Below are positions 9,121 to 53,870 of a stretch of DNA of 64,000 nt, piece after piece (position 1 is the first letter of the stretch; every line of letters begins with the position of its first letter). The position numbers and the translations under genes were made by a program. Under the pieces are notes generated by a model. The model saw nothing but the letters and a program-made list of their open reading frames with translations. It did no database searches and was not told where the DNA came from. This DNA comes from [Ruminococcus] lactaris ATCC 29176 (GTDB lineage Bacteria > Bacillota > Clostridia > Lachnospirales > Lachnospiraceae). The stretch spans positions 1,922,001-1,986,000 of the forward strand of contig NZ_CP102292.1 in the NCBI RefSeq assembly GCF_025152405.1, given 5' to 3'.

Positions 9121-9310
9121 AATAACTACATCATTTCGGTAGGTGAGGTTACCACAGGGATTGGATGATTCGGCTTATGTCGTTAAATCCGAAGATTGCT
9201 ACCGCGGAATTGTGGAGACACGATGAGCTGGTTAGCAGGCTGCGTCGCGAAGGCGCAACTTAATGCAATTTATATGCCCTGTGATGCTAAAGCTTGAACG
9301 GTGCTATTAT
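9121..9310 (+). promoter_or_regulatory. M-box (ykoK) magnesium riboswitch
   Basis: The leader carries M-box landmarks in order: GTAGGTGAGGTTACC near 9139, GATTGCTACCGCGG near 9194, GCTGGTTAGCAGGCTGCG near 9228, a run AACTTAATGCAA, and TGTGATGCTAAAGCTTGAACGG near the 3' end. It is followed by an intrinsic terminator and then mgtE, the classical arrangement in which Mg2+ binding favours termination. Identification is from remembered family motifs; a covariance-model scan would be the formal test. Confidence 0.88.
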
Positions 9311-9325
9311 TTAGTTGGGGTTCAG

Positions 9326-10820: not shown

Positions 10821-11223
10821 GAAATAAAGAGCCGGAAGGCTATTGACCAGGATAAGCAATCTGCAAACTGCAGGATTTGATATCTTAGTCGATAACCTTC
10901 CGGCTCTTCTTCTTATTTTTAAATTTGCATTGTTGAGTGAATATGCTGTGGAGCTAAAAACTTCTTATCGAGATGGTCAGCGGAAAGCAGGGTGTTCCTG
11001 AGCAGGTGCATTAGCAGGAGCGTTCCGAAGACACTTTGCAGCGTTTGTTAGAGAAAGTAAATCGAGTGCCATTGCACGAAGATTTCCACTTTCGAGTTAC
11101 AAACGGTCAACGGGCTGAGGTAAAGCGAGCCTGCACTGCGAAGGAATATCCCTGCTTTCCGCGTCCGCTTCGCCACAAAGAAGCTTTCTGATTTACAAGC
11201 GTATCACCCCGACAACTACAAAT
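10821..11223 (-). repeat. Structured 3' element, copy A (downstream of tex)
   Basis: Non-coding element read on the minus strand from the tex stop codon. Terminal arms AAATTTG (11219-11225, overlapping the stop) and CAAATTT (10921-10927) close it. Inside, GCGGAAAGCAGGG pairs with CCCTGCTTTCCGC (11150-11162 with 10980-10992, 13 base pairs). Nested helices follow: GCAGTGCA with TGCA-C-CTGC, CGTTTGT with ACAAACG, GAAAGT..AAATC with GATTTACTTTC, and a GTGC-GCAC hairpin. A bidirectional terminator hairpin occupies 10829-10907. It is about 96% identical to copy C. No protein is encoded. Confidence 0.85.
10829..10907. terminator. Bidirectional terminator within copy A
   Basis: AGAGCCGGAAGG and CCTTCCGGCTCT form the base of a long hairpin whose helix continues through TATTGAC/GTCGATA with one mismatch. 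TCTTCTTATTTTT follows on the plus strand (end of mgtE) and a weaker T-rich stretch on the minus strand (end of tex). Confidence 0.75.
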
Positions 11224-13374
11224 TTATATTCCCCGCATCGTCAACTGAATCCTTTTTTTCTTCATATCCACACTCATTACCTTTACATCCACAATATCAC
11301 CCACGCTGACAGCCTCCAGTGGATGTTTTATAAACTTATCCGTAATCTGGGAAATATGCACCAGTCCGTCCTGATGGACTCCGATATCCACAAATGCACC
11401 GAAATCAATGACATTTCTTACTGTTCCTTTCAGAACCATTCCCTCTTTCAGATCTTTCATTTCAAGTACATCGGTACGAAGAATCGGCTTTGGCATTTCA
11501 TCACGTGGATCACGTGCCGGTTTTTCCAGCTCTTTTACAATATCTCGCAACGTGATCTCTCCGATCTCCAGTTCTTCTGCCAGCTTTTTATAATCTCTGA
11601 TCGTCAATGATAACCCTGTTAATTTATGGTTTGTGATATCCTCTGCTTTGTATCCCTGCTTCTTCAGGAGCTTTTCTGCCGCTTCATAAGATTCAGGATG
11701 AACTGCTGTCGCATCCAGCGGATTTTTTCCACCCTGGATCCTCATGAATCCCGCACACTGCTCATAGGCTTTTGGCCCCAGCTTCGGTACTTTTAAAAGT
11801 TCCCGTCTGTCGGCAAACTTTCCATTTTCTTCCCGGTAAGCAACAATATTTTTTGCGATTGCACTGCTGATTCCTGAAATATATGCAAGCAACGGTGCAG
11901 AAGCCGTATTCAGATCCACGCCTACTTTATTCACACAATCCTCAACCACACCATTTAATGATTCACCGAGCTTCTTCTGATTCATATCATGCTGATACTG
12001 ACCTACTCCGATTGCTTTCGGATCAATCTTCACCAGTTCAGCCAGCGGATCCTGCAGTCTTCTTGCGATCGATGCAGCACTTCTCTGTCCTACATCAAAC
12101 TTCGGAAATTCCTCGCTTGCCAACTTACTTGCTGAATAAACAGAGGCCCCCGCCTCATTTACGATCACATACTGTACCTTTTCAGGAATTTCTTTCAATA
12201 ATTCTACAATAAATTCTTCTGACTCTCTTGAAGCCGTTCCATTTCCAAGAGAAATCAGAGAAATATGGTACTTTGGAATAATCTTTTTCAGAAGATCCTT
12301 ACTCGCCTGGATCTTCTTCGGTGTTGTAGGAGCCGTCGGATAAATAACCGTCGTTCCGATCACCTTTCCGGTCTCATCAACAACAGCCAGCTTACATCCT
12401 GTACGGAATGCGGGATCCCATCCAAGTACCACTTTTCCTGCGATCGGTGGCTGCATCAGAAGCTGGTGCAGATTTTTTCCAAATACTTCAATCGCTCCAT
12501 TCTCCGCACGTTCTGTCAATTCGCTTCGTATCTCACGCTCGATGGCCGGAGCGATCAGACGGTTATAACTGTCAGCCACCGTCTCTTTTAATACTTCCGT
12601 TGTATATGGATTTTCGTTCACGATCACTTTCTTTTCCAGATAACGCAGGATTTCTTCTTCCGGTGCCTGCACTTTTACTGTCAGAAATTTCTCCTTTTCT
12701 CCTCGGTTTAATGCAAGAATCCGATGCCCTGCCAGCTTTTCCGCAGGTTCTTCAAATTCATAATACATTTCATAAACTGACTCTGCCTCAGGATCTTTTG
12801 CTGTAGAAATAACTTTTCCTTTATTCATCGTAATCTTTCTGATCCAGCTCCGGTAATCTGCGTTATCTGAGATGGACTCGGCAATGATATCTCTCGCCCC
12901 TGCAACAGCCTCTGACGCTGATACAACACTCTTCTCCTGAGAAATATACGCTTCTGCGATCTTTTCCAATGGTTCCATACTTTTCTGCAACATAATAACT
13001 GCTGCCAGTGGTTCTAACCCCTTTTCCTTTGCGATGGTCGCCCTGGTACGACGCTTCGGTCGGTATGGCCGGTACAGATCCTCCACGGAAACCAGTGTCT
13101 CTGCAGCAAGAATCTGCTGCTTTAATTCTTCCGTCAGCTTCCCCTGTTCCTCTATACTGGAAAGCACCTGCTCTTTCTTTTCTTCCAGATTTCTCAAATA
13201 AATCAAACGCTCATACAGCTTTCTGAGCTGCTCATCATTCAGAGAACCGGTCACTTCTTTTCTGTATCGTGAAATAAACGGAATGGTATATCCTTCGTCA
13301 ATGAGATTTACCGCGGCATCCACCTGCCACCTTTTCACCCCAAGTTCTTCTGTCACTTTCTGATTAATATCCAT
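11224..13374 (-). CDS. tex: Tex family transcription accessory/RNA-binding protein
   Basis: This 716-residue cytosolic protein has the full Tex architecture. An N-terminal helical region contains the YqgF-like RNase H fold (VVLGWDPAFRTGCKLAVVD, near residues 318-336). A helix-hairpin-helix pair follows (SGISSAIAKNIVAYREENG and LLKVPKLGPKAYEQCAGF). The C-terminal S1 RNA-binding domain reads GMVLKGTVRNVIDFGAFVDIG and HQDGLVHISQI. Tex binds nucleic acids and the transcription machinery; its exact role in Clostridia is not settled. The start has AGAGAGGATC upstream. Its TAA stop is also the outer edge of structured element copy A. Confidence 0.95.
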   Translation of the reverse strand: MDINQKVTEELGVKRWQVDAAVNLIDEGYTIPFISRYRKEVTGSLNDEQLRKLYERLIYLRNLEEKKEQVLSSIEEQGKLTEELKQQILAAETLVSVEDLYRPYRPKRRTRATIAKEKGLEPLAAVIMLQKSMEPLEKIAEAYISQEKSVVSASEAVAGARDIIAESISDNADYRSWIRKITMNKGKVISTAKDPEAESVYEMYYEFEEPAEKLAGHRILALNRGEKEKFLTVKVQAPEEEILRYLEKKVIVNENPYTTEVLKETVADSYNRLIAPAIEREIRSELTERAENGAIEVFGKNLHQLLMQPPIAGKVVLGWDPAFRTGCKLAVVDETGKVIGTTVIYPTAPTTPKKIQASKDLLKKIIPKYHISLISLGNGTASRESEEFIVELLKEIPEKVQYVIVNEAGASVYSASKLASEEFPKFDVGQRSAASIARRLQDPLAELVKIDPKAIGVGQYQHDMNQKKLGESLNGVVEDCVNKVGVDLNTASAPLLAYISGISSAIAKNIVAYREENGKFADRRELLKVPKLGPKAYEQCAGFMRIQGGKNPLDATAVHPESYEAAEKLLKKQGYKAEDITNHKLTGLSLTIRDYKKLAEELEIGEITLRDIVKELEKPARDPRDEMPKPILRTDVLEMKDLKEGMVLKGTVRNVIDFGAFVDIGVHQDGLVHISQITDKFIKHPLEAVSVGDIVDVKVMSVDMKKKRIQLTMRGI

Positions 13375-13635
13375 AATTTATGATCCTCTCTTTTCTTCGG
13401 ATTCTGATAATAAGCACTTTTCTTCTGCTATGCTTTTTCTATTTCATATTTCCGCTGTCTATTCCCCATTTTATCATATTCCACCCGAAAGAATCTACCG
13501 GAATCCTGGAAAATATCCCCGGATTACGCTATAATATCATCTGTGTCTGAATGGATACGATTTATTTTTATCAGCCTTTGACTCTCAAATAGTTTCTTTT
13601 GAAATAAATAGTTTTCTTTGAAAGGATTTTTATAT

Positions 13636-14523
13636 ATGGAACGAACTATTACTTATCAGATTTCAGAATCAGAACACGGACTACGTGTAGAACAATATCT
13701 CCGTCATAAAGGCTATTCCTATCAGAATCTGACTCAGCTTAAGAAAATGCCTGAAAGTATTCTGATCAACGGAATCTGGTCTTATATGCGAAGTACACTT
13801 TCCTGCGGCGATACTCTGACGGTCCATATTCAGGAATCTGAATACTCCGAACATATCCCACCTGTTCAACTGCCTTTGGATATCATTTATGAGGATGATG
13901 ATCTGCTTGTTGTAAATAAACCGGCAGGAATGCCTATTCATCCTTCGCTGAATAACTATAAAAATTCACTTGCAAATGCACTTATGTATTATTATAAAGA
14001 ACAGGGAAAGCCATTTATTTTCCGCTGTACCAACCGACTTGACCGTGATACTTCAGGGCTGACTGTAATCGCCAAGCATCTTGTCAGTTCCAGTATCCTA
14101 TCCTTCATGGCAGTCCGTCATGAAATCCACAGAGAGTACCTGGCGATCGTCCGGGGGGCAGTTTCTCCTGCTTCCGGAACGATCAATGCACCTCTTGCCC
14201 GTACCGGCAGCTCTATAATTGAGCGAAAAGTTGACTTTGAACATGGAGAGCATGCTGTCACGCACTATAAAGTATTAAAGGAACAGAACCAGCACAGTCT
14301 TGTCTCCCTTATTTTAGAAACCGGCCGTACCCATCAGATCCGTGTACATCTTCAGTATCTCGGACATCCACTGGTCGGGGATTATCTCTATAATCCTGAT
14401 ATGGAATATATCAACCGGCAGGCTCTCCATTCCTGGAAACTTTCATTCATTCATCCGATCACCGGTGAGGCAATGCATTTTGAAGCACCACTGCCGGAGG
14501 ATATGAGGAAAGTGTTGGGATAA
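13636..14523 (+). CDS. RluA family 23S/tRNA pseudouridine synthase
   Basis: This 295-residue enzyme isomerises uridine to pseudouridine in RNA. An S4-like N-terminal region is followed by the catalytic domain with IIYEDDDLLVVNKPAGMPIHPS. The RLDRDTSGLTVIAKH motif holds the catalytic Asp, and ETGRTHQIRVHLQYLGHPLVGD is the conserved C-terminal signature. I chose the ATG at 13636 because AAAGGA lies nine bases upstream; a TTG 18 bases earlier is possible. The specific RNA target is not visible. It stands alone, convergent with nagA, and its TAA runs directly into structured element copy B. Confidence 0.93.
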   Translation: MERTITYQISESEHGLRVEQYLRHKGYSYQNLTQLKKMPESILINGIWSYMRSTLSCGDTLTVHIQESEYSEHIPPVQLPLDIIYEDDDLLVVNKPAGMPIHPSLNNYKNSLANALMYYYKEQGKPFIFRCTNRLDRDTSGLTVIAKHLVSSSILSFMAVRHEIHREYLAIVRGAVSPASGTINAPLARTGSSIIERKVDFEHGEHAVTHYKVLKEQNQHSLVSLILETGRTHQIRVHLQYLGHPLVGDYLYNPDMEYINRQALHSWKLSFIHPITGEAMHFEAPLPEDMRKVLG

Positions 14524-14845
14524 ATTTGTAGTTGTCGGGGTGAAAATATCGCGACAGCAGGAAGTGTTTCTGACAGAAGAGCGTCCATATCCACACTTGT
14601 TGTTGCATCGCAGTGCAGGACCCGCTTTACCTCAGCCCGTTGACAACTTGTAACAGGAATGTGGAAACACTCGTGCAGAGGCACTCCTGTTTACGTTCCT
14701 TAACAAGTTGGGCAAAGTGTCTTCGGAACGCTCCCTGTCAATGCACTGCTCACGCAACAGCAAGGGCGGATATTAGGCTTTTCAAATTAGAAAATTTTCC
14801 CTCATGCCAGAACAGTTTCTCCCAACAAAGACGAAATTTTAATAA
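14524..14845 (+). repeat. Structured 3' element, copy B (diverged, downstream of rluA-like gene)
   Basis: Read on the plus strand from the rluA-like stop, this segment aligns with copies A and C at both ends and in internal blocks, including TTTACCTCAGCCCGTTGAC and GTGTCTTCGGAACGCTCC. Most helix sequences differ, yet they still pair: CTTGTTGTTGC with GCAACAGCAAG, ATATCC with GGATAT, GCAGTGCA with TGCACTGC, AACTTGT with ACAAGTT, and GGAATG with CGTTCC. The closing arms are AAATTT (ending at 14527) and AAATTT (14834-14839). It lacks its own terminator and abuts the one in copy C. Confidence 0.8.
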
Positions 14846-15249
14846 GAAATAAAGAGCCGGATGGCTATTGACCAGGATAAGCAATCTGCAAACTGCAGGA
14901 TTTGATATCTTAGTCGATAACCTTCCGGCTCTTCTTCTTATTTTTAAATTTGCATTGTTGAGTGAATATGCTGTGGAGCTAAAAACTTCTTATCGAGATG
15001 GTCAGCGGAAAGCAGGGTGTTCCTGAGCAGGTGCATTAGCAGGAGCGTTCCGAAGACACTTTGCAGCGTTTGTTAGAGAAAGTAAATCGAGTGCCATTGC
15101 ACGAAGATTTCCACTTTCGAGTTACAAACGGTCAACGGGCTGAGGTAAAGCGGGCCTGCACTGCGAAGGAATATCCCTGATTTCCGCGTCCGCTTCGCCA
15201 TAAAGAAGTCTTTTGCTTTACAAGCGTATCATTCCAACAAATACAAATT
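14846..15249 (-). repeat. Structured 3' element, copy C (downstream of nagA)
   Basis: Near-identical to copy A over its whole length, including the terminator hairpin at 14854-14932, with roughly fifteen differences seen by eye, clustered at the nagA-proximal end. It is read on the minus strand from the nagA stop. The long helix is kept with one change: CCCTGATTTCCGC at 15175-15187 turns one pair into a U-G wobble in the nagA direction. It lies head to head with copy B, so the two form an imperfect inverted repeat between convergent genes. Confidence 0.85.
14854..14932. terminator. Shared terminator between rluA-like gene and nagA
   Basis: Same hairpin as in copy A, with one arm change (GAGCCGGATGG against CCTTCCGGCTC) that opens a single mismatch. 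TCTTCTTATTTTT follows on the plus strand. Confidence 0.7.
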
Positions 15250-16374
15250 TTACATCATTTCCCCAAAACTGATCGTTCCTTTTAACTCCAGTTCCTCATC
15301 CAGTAATACAAAGTCTGCATCTTTTCCAGTCTTAATCGCACCTTTCTGAGTCAGTCCAAACTCTTTTGCCTGATTTCCTGAAGACATCTTTACAGCATCT
15401 TCAATCGATACACCGGTAAACTTGATAATATTCTGGAACGCTTTAATATAAGTCAGTACACTTCCGGCGATTGTTCCATCCTCCAGGCGTGCAGTACCGT
15501 CTTTTACATAGACAACCTGTCCACCCAGTTCACTTTTACCTTCCGGCATTCCTTTTGCACGCATGGAGTCTGTGATAAGTTCGATTCCGTCACTGCCCTT
15601 TACTTTATGTGCCAATGCGATCATCTGCGGTCTGATATGGATACCGTCACAGATCAGCTCTGTATTAACGCCATCGGTCAGAAGACCATATCCGGTAACT
15701 CCCGGCTCTCTGTGCTTCAGACCTCTCTGTGCGTTATAAAGATGAGTCACATGGCAGGCTCTGGATGCCACAAGCTGGTCATAAGTTGCATCGGAATGTC
15801 CAGCACTTGGAACGATCCGGTTGGAAAGACACCAGTTCTCAAATTCTTCCGTTGCCTCCTCCGGTGCATAAGTAACCACACGGATACGGTTTCCGCTTAA
15901 CTCATTCCAGTGAGCAAGTGCTTTCTCATCTGGTTTCTTAATATAAGAAGCATCCTGTGCCCCTTTATAGTTGACTGAAATAAACGGTCCTTCCAGGTGG
16001 ATTCCCTGGATGATCGGATTTTTTTCCGCTGCTTCTTTGATCTGCACCATGGCTTTTTCAATATTATCATAAGTCTGCGTCATCGTTGTGCAGAAGTAAG
16101 TTGTGATTCCCTCTTTGGCTGCCATCTGACGTACCATCCAGTCAATCTCATCTGCGGAAGCATCCATGCTGTCTTTTCCGTATCCTCCATGACTATGCAC
16201 ATCAACAAATCCCGGGATCACATAAGTCGCATCTGTCTCAATGATCTCATCGTCTTCCTGCGGTACGAAATTTCTCATTTCGTCTACTTCTGAGATTCTC
16301 TGGTTGAATCGGACATATCCATTGTCAATTTTTCCGTTTCCTGTATATATTATTTTATTTTTTAATACTTTCAT
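15250..16374 (-). CDS. nagA: N-acetylglucosamine-6-phosphate deacetylase
   Basis: This 374-residue amidohydrolase removes the acetyl group from GlcNAc-6-phosphate, feeding amino-sugar catabolism and cell-wall recycling. Visible are the metal motif FVDVHSHGGYGKD, the HLEGPFISVNYKGAQD segment with a ligand Glu, SAGHSDATYDQ, THLYNAQRG, and the catalytic Asp in ELITDSMRAKGM. I chose the ATG at 16374 because AAAGGAAG lies eight bases upstream; an upstream extension lacks a good site. No nagB adjoins it. Its stop codon overlaps the edge of structured element copy C. Confidence 0.93.
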   Translation of the reverse strand: MKVLKNKIIYTGNGKIDNGYVRFNQRISEVDEMRNFVPQEDDEIIETDATYVIPGFVDVHSHGGYGKDSMDASADEIDWMVRQMAAKEGITTYFCTTMTQTYDNIEKAMVQIKEAAEKNPIIQGIHLEGPFISVNYKGAQDASYIKKPDEKALAHWNELSGNRIRVVTYAPEEATEEFENWCLSNRIVPSAGHSDATYDQLVASRACHVTHLYNAQRGLKHREPGVTGYGLLTDGVNTELICDGIHIRPQMIALAHKVKGSDGIELITDSMRAKGMPEGKSELGGQVVYVKDGTARLEDGTIAGSVLTYIKAFQNIIKFTGVSIEDAVKMSSGNQAKEFGLTQKGAIKTGKDADFVLLDEELELKGTISFGEMM

Positions 16375-23429: not shown

Positions 23430-24707
23430 TTAATACTCTCGGATAATACTGCTGATCTCCTGGATACTCGGAATCTCCATCAGTGCTTTCAGTGCCTCCT
23501 GCATATTGCATTCCTTCACACGCTCCGTCACGATAACCAGCTCTGCTGCTTCCGGTGCAGAATGTTCCTGGACTACCCTCGTAATACTTACTTTATGGTC
23601 TCCAAATACCTCTGCAATAGCGGCAAGTACTCCCGGTTCATTTGCGACCTGCATACGGATAAAGAACTTGTTCTTCACCTGACCAAATTCCTTGATCGGC
23701 AGATCTTTATAGCAGGTACAACTGATCCTTCCCGTACAGCCATATCCGATATTTCTTACCACATCAATCACATCGCCCATTACGGCACTGGCTGTCGGAA
23801 ATTCACCTGCACCCCTTCCGTAAAACATGGCATCATCCACTGCATCTCCATGAACAAAAACTGCATTGAAAGAATCCCGTACAGAAGCAAGTGGATGCTC
23901 TTTCCGGATCATCATCGGATAGACTCCGACCTCGATTCCATTTTCTGTATTATGTGCAACACCCAGAAGCTTGATGACGCTGTCAAATTCCTTTGCATAT
24001 GCAATATCCCTTGCCGTAATCTTCGTAATTCCTTCTGTATGTACATTAAAGAATACAACTCTGGAATGAAATGCGATGGATGCCATGATCGCCACTTTTC
24101 TTCCCGCATCCAGTCCTTCCACGTCCGCAGTAGGGTCTGCCTCTGCAAATCCAAGTTCCTGTGCCTTTTTCAGTGCATCTGCAAAATCCATTCCCTCTTC
24201 TGTCATCTTGGTAAGGATATAATTGGTCGTACCGTTCACAATCCCAACTATCTCTGAAATATCATTGGCTGCCAGACATTGCTTCAACGGACGGATGATC
24301 GGGATGCCTCCTGCTACCGCCGCCTCGAATAAGAAATCCACCTGATTCTTCTGTGCTGTATCAAGAAGGACATGCCCTTCCTCTGCGATCAGATCTTTAT
24401 TCGCAGAAACTACATTCTTCCCGGCTTCCAGTGCCTCCAGGATCATCGTCTTTGCAGGCTCAAGTCCACCCATCACTTCGATCACGACAGAGATTTCATC
24501 GTCCTCAAGAATCTCTTTCCAGTTATCCGTAAGAAGCTCCTGCTCCACACCTTCACGCTTTTTCTGCATATTCCGCACAAGGATCTTCTTTACTTCCAGC
24601 TTCGCACCGGCCGTTCTTTCCATCACATCCGCTCTCTTCTGGATCAGTTTATATACACCTGTCCCTACAGTACCAAGACCGAGGATTGCAACTTTAATCG
24701 TATTCAA
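23430..24707 (-). CDS. hom: Homoserine dehydrogenase
   Basis: This 425-residue enzyme reduces aspartate semialdehyde to homoserine on the way to threonine and methionine. The N-terminal NAD(P)-binding fold shows ILGLGTVGTGVYKLI. The central domain has VGIVNGTTNYILTKM and AEADPTADVEGLDAGRK with the catalytic Asp and Lys region. A C-terminal ACT domain (about residues 345-425, IRMQVANEPGVLAAIAEVFG) suggests feedback by threonine. The start is a TTG at 24707 with GAGGTG seven bases upstream. It heads the minus-strand run that includes marR. Confidence 0.93.
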   Translation of the reverse strand: MNTIKVAILGLGTVGTGVYKLIQKRADVMERTAGAKLEVKKILVRNMQKKREGVEQELLTDNWKEILEDDEISVVIEVMGGLEPAKTMILEALEAGKNVVSANKDLIAEEGHVLLDTAQKNQVDFLFEAAVAGGIPIIRPLKQCLAANDISEIVGIVNGTTNYILTKMTEEGMDFADALKKAQELGFAEADPTADVEGLDAGRKVAIMASIAFHSRVVFFNVHTEGITKITARDIAYAKEFDSVIKLLGVAHNTENGIEVGVYPMMIRKEHPLASVRDSFNAVFVHGDAVDDAMFYGRGAGEFPTASAVMGDVIDVVRNIGYGCTGRISCTCYKDLPIKEFGQVKNKFFIRMQVANEPGVLAAIAEVFGDHKVSITRVVQEHSAPEAAELVIVTERVKECNMQEALKALMEIPSIQEISSIIREY

Positions 24708-24827
24708 TGAACTACACCTCTTTCATCAAAATTCTGAACGCTTCAGTTTAACGCTCTAAGTATACCATGATTTTTTCTTCTTAAAAAGCCTAAACTATTA
24801 AGAAAATATTTTTTTCACAAAAAAATA

Positions 24828-28346: not shown

Positions 28347-28617
28347 CAAAAAACCGCCTCAAGCGAAATGCTTGAGACGGTAATAAATTTCTTTACTATC
28401 GCGGTACCACTCAAATTGACCTGCGTCCACTTTCTCACGTACTAACATACGCTCCTGATTGATAACGGGTTCGGTTCCCGGCGACTCCTACTCTTTTCAT
28501 TTCAGGCCACCCTCGAAAGTCCATTCGGAATTAAAATCCTTACAGCAATCCCACCACCTGCTGCTCTCTGCAAATTCTTTTAAAACTTACTTCTCTTCCT
28601 CATCGGTTTTTGCTTTT
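28347..28617 (-). promoter_or_regulatory. T-box riboswitch leader for the ABC transporter
   Basis: Read on the minus strand, the leader has Stem I features (GATGAGG, AAGTAAG, AGAGAGC, GGTGGTGGGA, GAATGGACTTTCGAG). Then CCTGAAATGAAAAGAGTAGG holds the specifier region, and AGTGGTACCGCG is the T-box proper (28401-28412). The terminator CCGTCTCAAGC/GCTTGAGGCGG plus a T-run lies at 28347-28380. By position relative to GAA and AGAGTAGG the specifier could be AUG (methionine), but I cannot exclude a neighbouring triplet. A uniform T-box model would settle the codon. Confidence 0.9.
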
Positions 28618-53677: not shown

Positions 53678-53870
53678 GTCGGGGTCAAAAGCCCCCGACT
53701 ATGATACCTACGGATTGTTACACACTACGTGCTCCCACAATCCTACCCAACATTCGCATATCATGGTGCTTACGCCCCACTTTTATGCTCATATTGGGGC
53801 GGGTCACAAGGTCATTCTACCACTAGTGTGCGAGCACACATGGTGTCAGACCTTTTGACCCTGGTATCAT
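53678..53870 (+). other. Compact multi-hairpin RNA-like element before nptA
   Basis: Closing helix ATGATACC (53701-53708) with GGTATCAT (53863-53870) encloses four helices: GGATTGT/ACAATCC (53712-53743), GCCCCA/TGGGGC (53774-53800), GGTC/GACC, and the perfect GTGTGC-GA-GCACAC (53826-53839). Just upstream GTCGGGG/CCCCGAC (53678-53699) forms a hairpin, but GGGTCAAAAG (53682-53691) can instead pair perfectly with CTTTTGACCC (53852-53861). It does not encode a protein and may be a leader RNA or an intergenic repeat. Confidence 0.6.

Follow-up and report, generated by a model that had tools for sequence, protein, structure and literature searches.

Palindromic arms at gene ends of [Ruminococcus] lactaris and its relatives: a conserved fold that favors the strand antisense to the adjacent gene

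The genome of [Ruminococcus] lactaris ATCC 29176 carries a dispersed family of palindromic sequences of ∼300 nt, here termed arms, three of which (A, B and C) lie in the window, a stretch of 64,000 nt (NZ_CP102292.1, positions 1,922,001 to 1,986,000, numbered here from its first letter). Of the two strands of an arm, the fold favors the one that is antisense to the adjoining gene, the arm lying directly against the stop codon of that gene. Relatives have the same fold in other sequences, in part next to the same genes, which suggests a type of gene-end element that has not been recognized before. A covarying fold, this strand preference, a rule of orientation and distance at stop codons, the sharing of some sites between species and uniformity within a genome are all observed. 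The reading preferred here, held tentatively, is that the arms, as structured RNA arising by read-through or in antisense, may insulate gene ends against transcription from the opposite side.

Fold and strand preference

Arms were selected by an exact 13-nt block and a loose partner pattern, and thus the invariance of this block is by construction. The 239 arms collected form 42 clusters at 90% identity. One of these, the 'Aminicenantes' contig L274, was judged a chance match and removed once clustering was complete, so that it enters none of the covariation, strand and orientation counts and 41 sequences from Mediterraneibacter and a few relatives remain. An initial annotation of the window, made from three copies, had proposed a covariation check; it has been carried out on these many homologues with our own R-scape-like implementation (FastTree tree, parsimony null, G-test with average product correction, 150 nulls). 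Thirteen column pairs covary at E<0.05, and all 13 are among the 52 pairs predicted for the fold. In alignment A1, with a structure of 44 pairs, 90.1% of the cells pair, as compared with 69.1% after shuffling and 37.2–45.9% after sliding. Thirty-five pairs change on both sides, and the covariation score is 0.549 versus 0.183 (shuffled) and at most 0.154 (slid). Selection on the folded shape is therefore strongly supported. The initial annotation had spoken of selection on RNA shape; the shape is upheld, but RNA as such is not, as single-stranded DNA fits equally.

The annotation had also described long unpaired blocks. The blocks are present, but they are not simply unpaired: in alignment A1 they lie opposite one another and form a conserved irregular helix, in which we read tandem G.A pairs (CCGAA against UGAGG). 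No Rfam 15 family gives a gathering-level match on the element, either in the window or in 12 relatives' loci, in agreement with the earlier view that no named family is involved. A relaxed Rfam search of the region yields weak, unrelated names and nothing credible, and a literature search, within one library of papers, found none on the arm family.

The folded strand reads 5′-GGAGCGUUCCGAA..UGAGGURRAGC-3′. It has the more stable core in 41/41 arms, by a mean of 12.6 kcal/mol, and the longer arm is more stable on this strand in 39/41, counts that are not independent because the arms are related. In Watson-Crick-only folds of 52 distinct arms from relatives, the isolated mismatches on the folded strand are G.U in 72 cases and A.C in 14; with the other strand folded, the same arms show 14 G.U and 65 A.C. 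Mismatches on the structure are G.U 113 and A.C 35, the structure itself having been derived on the folded strand. Since G.T pairs also form in DNA, the mismatch tests pick out a strand, and not RNA over DNA. The term 3′ RNA element, used in the initial annotation, is partly a misreading, as the strand favored across the 41 distinct arms is the antisense one and not that of the mRNA 3′ untranslated region (UTR).

Arms in the window and in the R. lactaris genome

The features of the window are listed below. Conserved cores are those of covariance model R1, which was built with A and B included and C not.

10827..10908, no strand assigned: central-type hairpin left of A, just past the mgtE stop codon (gene end 10820); the B partner is absent
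10921..11225, + strand: solo arm A; folded strand +, antisense to tex; overlaps the tex stop codon (11224-11226) by 2 nt
10999..11145, + strand: conserved core of arm A
14522..15250, no strand assigned: whole composite B - center - C, 729 bp, with inverted terminal sequences, between the convergent rluA-like gene and nagA, whose stop codons its edges overlap
14522..14839, - strand: arm B; folded strand taken as -, antisense to the rluA-like gene; overlaps the stop codon (14521-14523) by 2 nt
14604..14752, - strand: conserved core of arm B
14852..14933, no strand assigned: central hairpin of the B-C composite
14946..15250, + strand: arm C; folded strand +, antisense to nagA, whose stop codon starts at 15250
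15024..15170, + strand: conserved core of arm C

Every string quoted in the initial annotation has been located, and A, B and C share the quoted blocks. GCGGAAAGCAGGG is at 10980 and 15005, CCCTGCTTTCCGC at 11150, CTTGTTGTTGC/GCAACAGCAAG at 14596/14754 and GCAGTGCA at 14610; CGTTTGT/ACAAACG is at 11042/11099 in A and 15067/15124 in C, and AACTTGT/ACAAGTT at 14645/14703 in B. Pairing is kept despite the differing helix sequences, with one pair broken in the quoted helix of C (CCCTGATTTCCGC at 15175). The two long blocks are on the + strand in B only (14626, 14717), and A and C hold their reverse complements (A, 11106 and 11017; C, 15131 and 15042); B is thus in the opposite orientation to the other two. 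With 96% identity over 310 nt and 300 identical nt in one run, A and C are near-copies, and so the three copies amount to two independent sequences. B is homologous to A/C on the - strand (83% over 64-66 nt, 82% over 45 nt). The three copies previously described do exist, but two are nearly identical, the third is inverted, and they are three of 68 arms that stand mostly in inverted pairs.

Arm A folds better than 100/100 shuffles on both strands (z -7.1 and -5.5). For arm B, 0/200 shuffles fold as well on the + strand and 1/200 on the - strand (z -4.8 and -2.9). Model R1 scores A at E 3e-38, B at E 3e-42 and C at E 1e-38. A weak match at 24700-24762 (-), of 15.5 bits and E 0.0026, covers 63 nt as against 148 model positions and is probably due to chance.

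The 68 arms are found in a genome of 2.73 Mb. There are 46 raw matches to A and 51 to B, which become 36 A-type and 32 B-type arms once split hits are merged and cross-hits removed. All 32 B-type arms lie inverted opposite an A-type arm across a spacer of 38 to 1781 nt, and four A-type arms are solo; such inverted palindromic pairs are also a property of repetitive extragenic palindromic sequences (REPs) and bacterial interspersed mosaic elements (BIMEs). The outer ends of the window composite form terminal inverted repeats (AAATTTGT.. / ..ACAAATTT), as in miniature inverted-repeat transposable elements. The identity of an arm to its best paralogue in the genome averages 0.996. There is in addition an A-type stub of ∼75 nt after an Rpn-like gene near 479.8k. 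The central hairpin of composites is flanked by T-rich sequence. An IS630-like transposase gene (DDE_3) is present in two spacers, and an Rpn-like gene (Transposase_31) in one.

By eye, several composite centers (e.g. L131, L128, L129) contain a nested element of ∼200 bp, with ends GATGTCGGGG..GGCATC, in either orientation. In the pieces of the genome that were analyzed, six Rpn-like genes (PF04754, at least 90% identical), near 172.3k, 478.7k, 515.3k, 782.2k, 844.1k and 2166.2k of the genome, are each bounded on both sides by arms, as if the set had been amplified through recombination between arms. The Rpn-like gene was considered as a general partner of arms and rejected: among loci L091-118 and L133-312 the sole match, L282, is the R. 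lactaris genome itself.

Gene ends and shared sites among relatives

Among 104 arm clusters of relatives, 122 gene ends were tallied (loci L133-L281 less five; L136, L140, L156 and L160, which lack the partner motif, are left out). At 90 of these ends the gene lies antisense to the folded strand; as genes were called from the longest open frame in the vicinity of each cluster, some of them are spurious. The distance from stop codon to core is 44-122 nt in 88 of the 90, and 47-417 nt for the remaining 32 ends. Gene ends are found for 58/64 composite edges in R. lactaris, and 36 stop codons lie at -6..+6 nt from the edge. The commonest case (21) is a TAA formed with the first two bases of the arm. 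Both edges are within 10 nt of a stop codon in 16/32 composites.

Some of these sites are shared between species. Relatives have 192 genes adjacent to an element; 44 are matched in the 7% of the R. lactaris genome that was compared, and 26 of the 44 abut an element here as well; this and the other shared-site figures are raw counts. For 8/13 sites of M. intestinigallinarum, M. surreyensis has a site with the same flanking gene, and in four of these cases both flanks agree. When R. lactaris is compared with the four relatives that offer at least two comparable arm pairs each, arms at shared sites resemble each other no more than random arms do (shared-site versus random identity: surreyensis 0.707/0.708, intestinigallinarum 0.695/0.708, faecavium 0.721/0.719, faecis 0.720/0.714). 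Four of the seven other species pairs have shared-site arms that are clearly more alike (e.g. catenae/quadrami, 0.924 vs 0.796), which is expected from recent common descent. Shared sites combined with uniformity within a genome imply either that old copies are gradually homogenized by conversion or that elements arrive repeatedly at the same gene ends. In the relatives' loci L162, L138 and L158, the genes that flank one composite flank two different composites in R. lactaris, a pattern that chromosome inversions with breakpoints at the elements would produce.

The icd gene is matched in 57/58 genomes of the genus; 30 loci were fetched, and the stop codon was found in 28. A type-1 block is downstream of icd in three species, R. 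lactaris, [R.] faecis and M. intestinigallinarum. In several other genomes a different long hairpin begins at the icd stop codon, and arm-free genomes (G003, G034, G024, G379) display what appear by eye to be plain terminators.

This other hairpin, a second type at gene ends, has the apical motif AACTC-hairpin-CTCAGACA and is present in 47/58 genus genomes, where single hits may be due to chance. Its pattern reaches 229 copies in G379, versus 0 for a reversed control, and occurs once in R. lactaris; carriers include G379, G026, G005 and G360, and loci L302, L296 and L310. The small hairpin varies with matching changes (GGCTCCGCC, GACTTCGTC, GCCTTTGGC), and arms of this type have no Rfam match at threshold. 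The second type suggests that what persists is a gene-end role rather than one sequence.

The exact block GGAGCGTTCCGAA is found in 32/58 genus genomes and 28/299 family genomes, mostly with one occurrence. A scan for the block with a spaced partner over 84,980 genomes, one per species, which may leave out the window's own record, returned 109 stretches. Ninety-eight are from Mediterraneibacter; the other 11 come from a Dorea metagenome-assembled genome (MAG), Faecalicatena contorta, three MAGs and one chance-like contig. Model R1, which is independent of the exact block and was used with strict filters in genome searches, matches at least 44/58 genus genomes and, with the R. lactaris genome included, at least 10/387 family genomes and at least 8/334 genera. 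Copy number is highly uneven between species, from 0 to at least 54 per genome.

Searches of plasmid sequences and of viral_contigs gave no arm match. Carriage by phage was considered and rejected, as four unannotated GenBank records filed as "Bacteriophage sp." (L313-L316: MT839318.1, MT838801.1, MT839411.1, MT838007.1) are pieces of the R. lactaris chromosome. They come from human fecal samples from Mexico, start or end inside repeats, and are 99.4-99.8% identical to the chromosome over 1.6-1.9 kb; the species thus occurs in the human gut. All four sites hold arms in these records as well (4/4 conserved within the species), and no difference in presence or absence was seen at the strain level. 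One report on R. lactaris, PMC7580957, concerns its CRISPR arrays and not the arm element.

Proposed insulation of gene ends and other readings

A fold that favors the antisense strand at a stop codon, and that is doubled between convergent genes, suggests a device that acts on transcription from the other side. In the proposed mechanism, the working form of each ∼300 nt arm would be the folded strand antisense to the abutting gene. A polymerase arriving from the opposite side, by convergent read-through or antisense transcription, would produce a nascent RNA that folds at the border of the protected gene; the conserved irregular helix is presumed to be a site for a protein or RNase, and the fold would end or destroy the opposing transcript before this extends into the coding region as antisense RNA. 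In a composite, with its inverted arms on either side of a central hairpin, both convergent genes would be guarded. Copies may have spread and been kept alike via recombination or transposition. Here we infer transcription of the arm, termination or decay of the transcript, and any bound factor. A terminator scan of the single-arm loci L139, L169 and L171 found no stem plus T-run, which is counted in favor of insulation, together with the apparent plain terminators, judged by eye, at icd in some species that lack the arm.

Several observations weigh against insulation by RNA. The 59 R. lactaris arms of two types reverse the mismatch pattern of the relatives, with G.U 23 and A.C 38 in Watson-Crick-only folds, and the G.U excess on the structure, counted per pair as 19 to 10, is not significant (p 0.14). 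For B, the other strand gives the more stable fold of 14522-14790 (-98.0 versus -87.8), and folded single-stranded DNA explains the strand preference equally well. Two window regions have two and three terminator-like sites, versus 1.1 and 0.5 in shuffles. There is no promoter-like site in these two regions, so that the RNA would need to come from read-through, and none on the needed strand in L139. At some single-arm sites the downstream gene runs in the same direction and no opposing gene is seen. Divergent promoters in the composite center were likewise considered and dropped, as the window regions have no promoter-like site.

The main rival, held almost as probable as insulation, is that arms are selfish DNA of the REP/BIME kind, that is, non-autonomous palindromic repeats moved in trans by an enzyme that recognizes a folded single strand, with inverted pairs and gene-end positions being what survives selection. 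The 68 dispersed copies in inverted pairs, their very uneven number between species and the nested IS630-like and Rpn-like genes all fit. Passages of PMC3733652 describe REPs as dispersed palindromes outside genes, downstream of genes or between convergent genes, and often in inverted pairs. The same passages give REPs as 20-40 bp with a GTAG or CGTC tag, the GTAG types being associated with RAYT (REP-associated tyrosine transposase) enzymes. The arms differ in their ∼300 nt length, conserved internal loops and abutment of stop codons. Membership in the RAYT/REP system was rejected, as no RAYT is found in the genome and its single Y1_Tnp gene is followed by a TnpB-like gene, a TnpA-TnpB pair. 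Fixed orientation and a near-zero distance to the stop codon are not expected from free insertion, several sites are common to different species, and the sites compared within the species were all conserved. Selfish spread of this type could account for the dispersal of arms under either reading.

The positions of arms directly after stop codons, in fixed orientation, can also be read as a 3′ UTR device on the mRNA strand: a terminator, stabilizer or processing site of the abutting gene. Long hairpins shield 3′ ends, and by eye the arm at icd stands where some species have plain terminators. Such a device is improbable, as the mRNA strand has the less stable fold in 41/41 cores and, in the arms of relatives, shows A.C mismatches in place of the G.U of the other strand; the three single-arm loci that were scanned contain no stem followed by a U-run. 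Intrinsic (bidirectional) terminators do resemble composites in their position between convergent genes and in a central hairpin with T-rich flanks, but the arms are far longer and have a conserved non-canonical motif.

Very unlikely is a recombination site similar to the attC of integrons, a hairpin that stands straight after a gene and whose bottom strand folds and recombines; here it would shuffle gene neighbors. In its favor are the antisense position of the folded strand with respect to the preceding gene, the variation of flanking partners between species at shared gene ends, and the uniform sequence within a genome. Against this, a search of the R. lactaris genome with the integron integrase profile TIGR02249 gave 15 matches, none above the cut-off, as in 14 control genomes, and cassette membership was rejected on this basis. 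The arms have another sequence and a length of ∼300 nt, the flanking genes are ordinary chromosomal ones and not cassettes, and homologous recombination between copies explains the shuffling. Least probable is that there is no selected function, and that quasi-palindrome correction, to which long imperfect palindromes are prone, created the matching changes. Correction would erase the conserved mismatched loops rather than keep them, and it gives no reason to expect a preferred strand or a rule of orientation or distance.

A wider form of the insulator proposal is itself doubtful: insulators would be genus-wide, fixed at stop codons, active on the antisense strand, evolving in concert, of at least two arm architectures, and would replace intrinsic terminators at conserved genes. 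If the antisense-strand fold does act at gene ends, this would be insulation of transcription in a form that we know from no described system, and it would open the control of convergent transcription in gut Firmicutes to direct tests. The combination of shared positions with near-identical copies in one genome offers a clear natural case in which to study how dispersed non-coding elements evolve in concert. Annotation with model R1 and the placement rule is possible at once.

A computational screen of gut genomes has produced thousands of candidate palindromic structured RNAs of human microbiomes (PMC8040213). These are similarly structured, palindromic and intergenic; the examples in the main text, to which the comparison is confined, differ in being 80-132 bp and from Bacteroidetes. 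Known RNAs of the window are Clostridiales-1 at 53702-53869 (-), a T-box leader barely above threshold at 28370-28612 (-), and an M-box riboswitch at 9128-9312 (+), which is 177 nt upstream of the mgtE-like gene.

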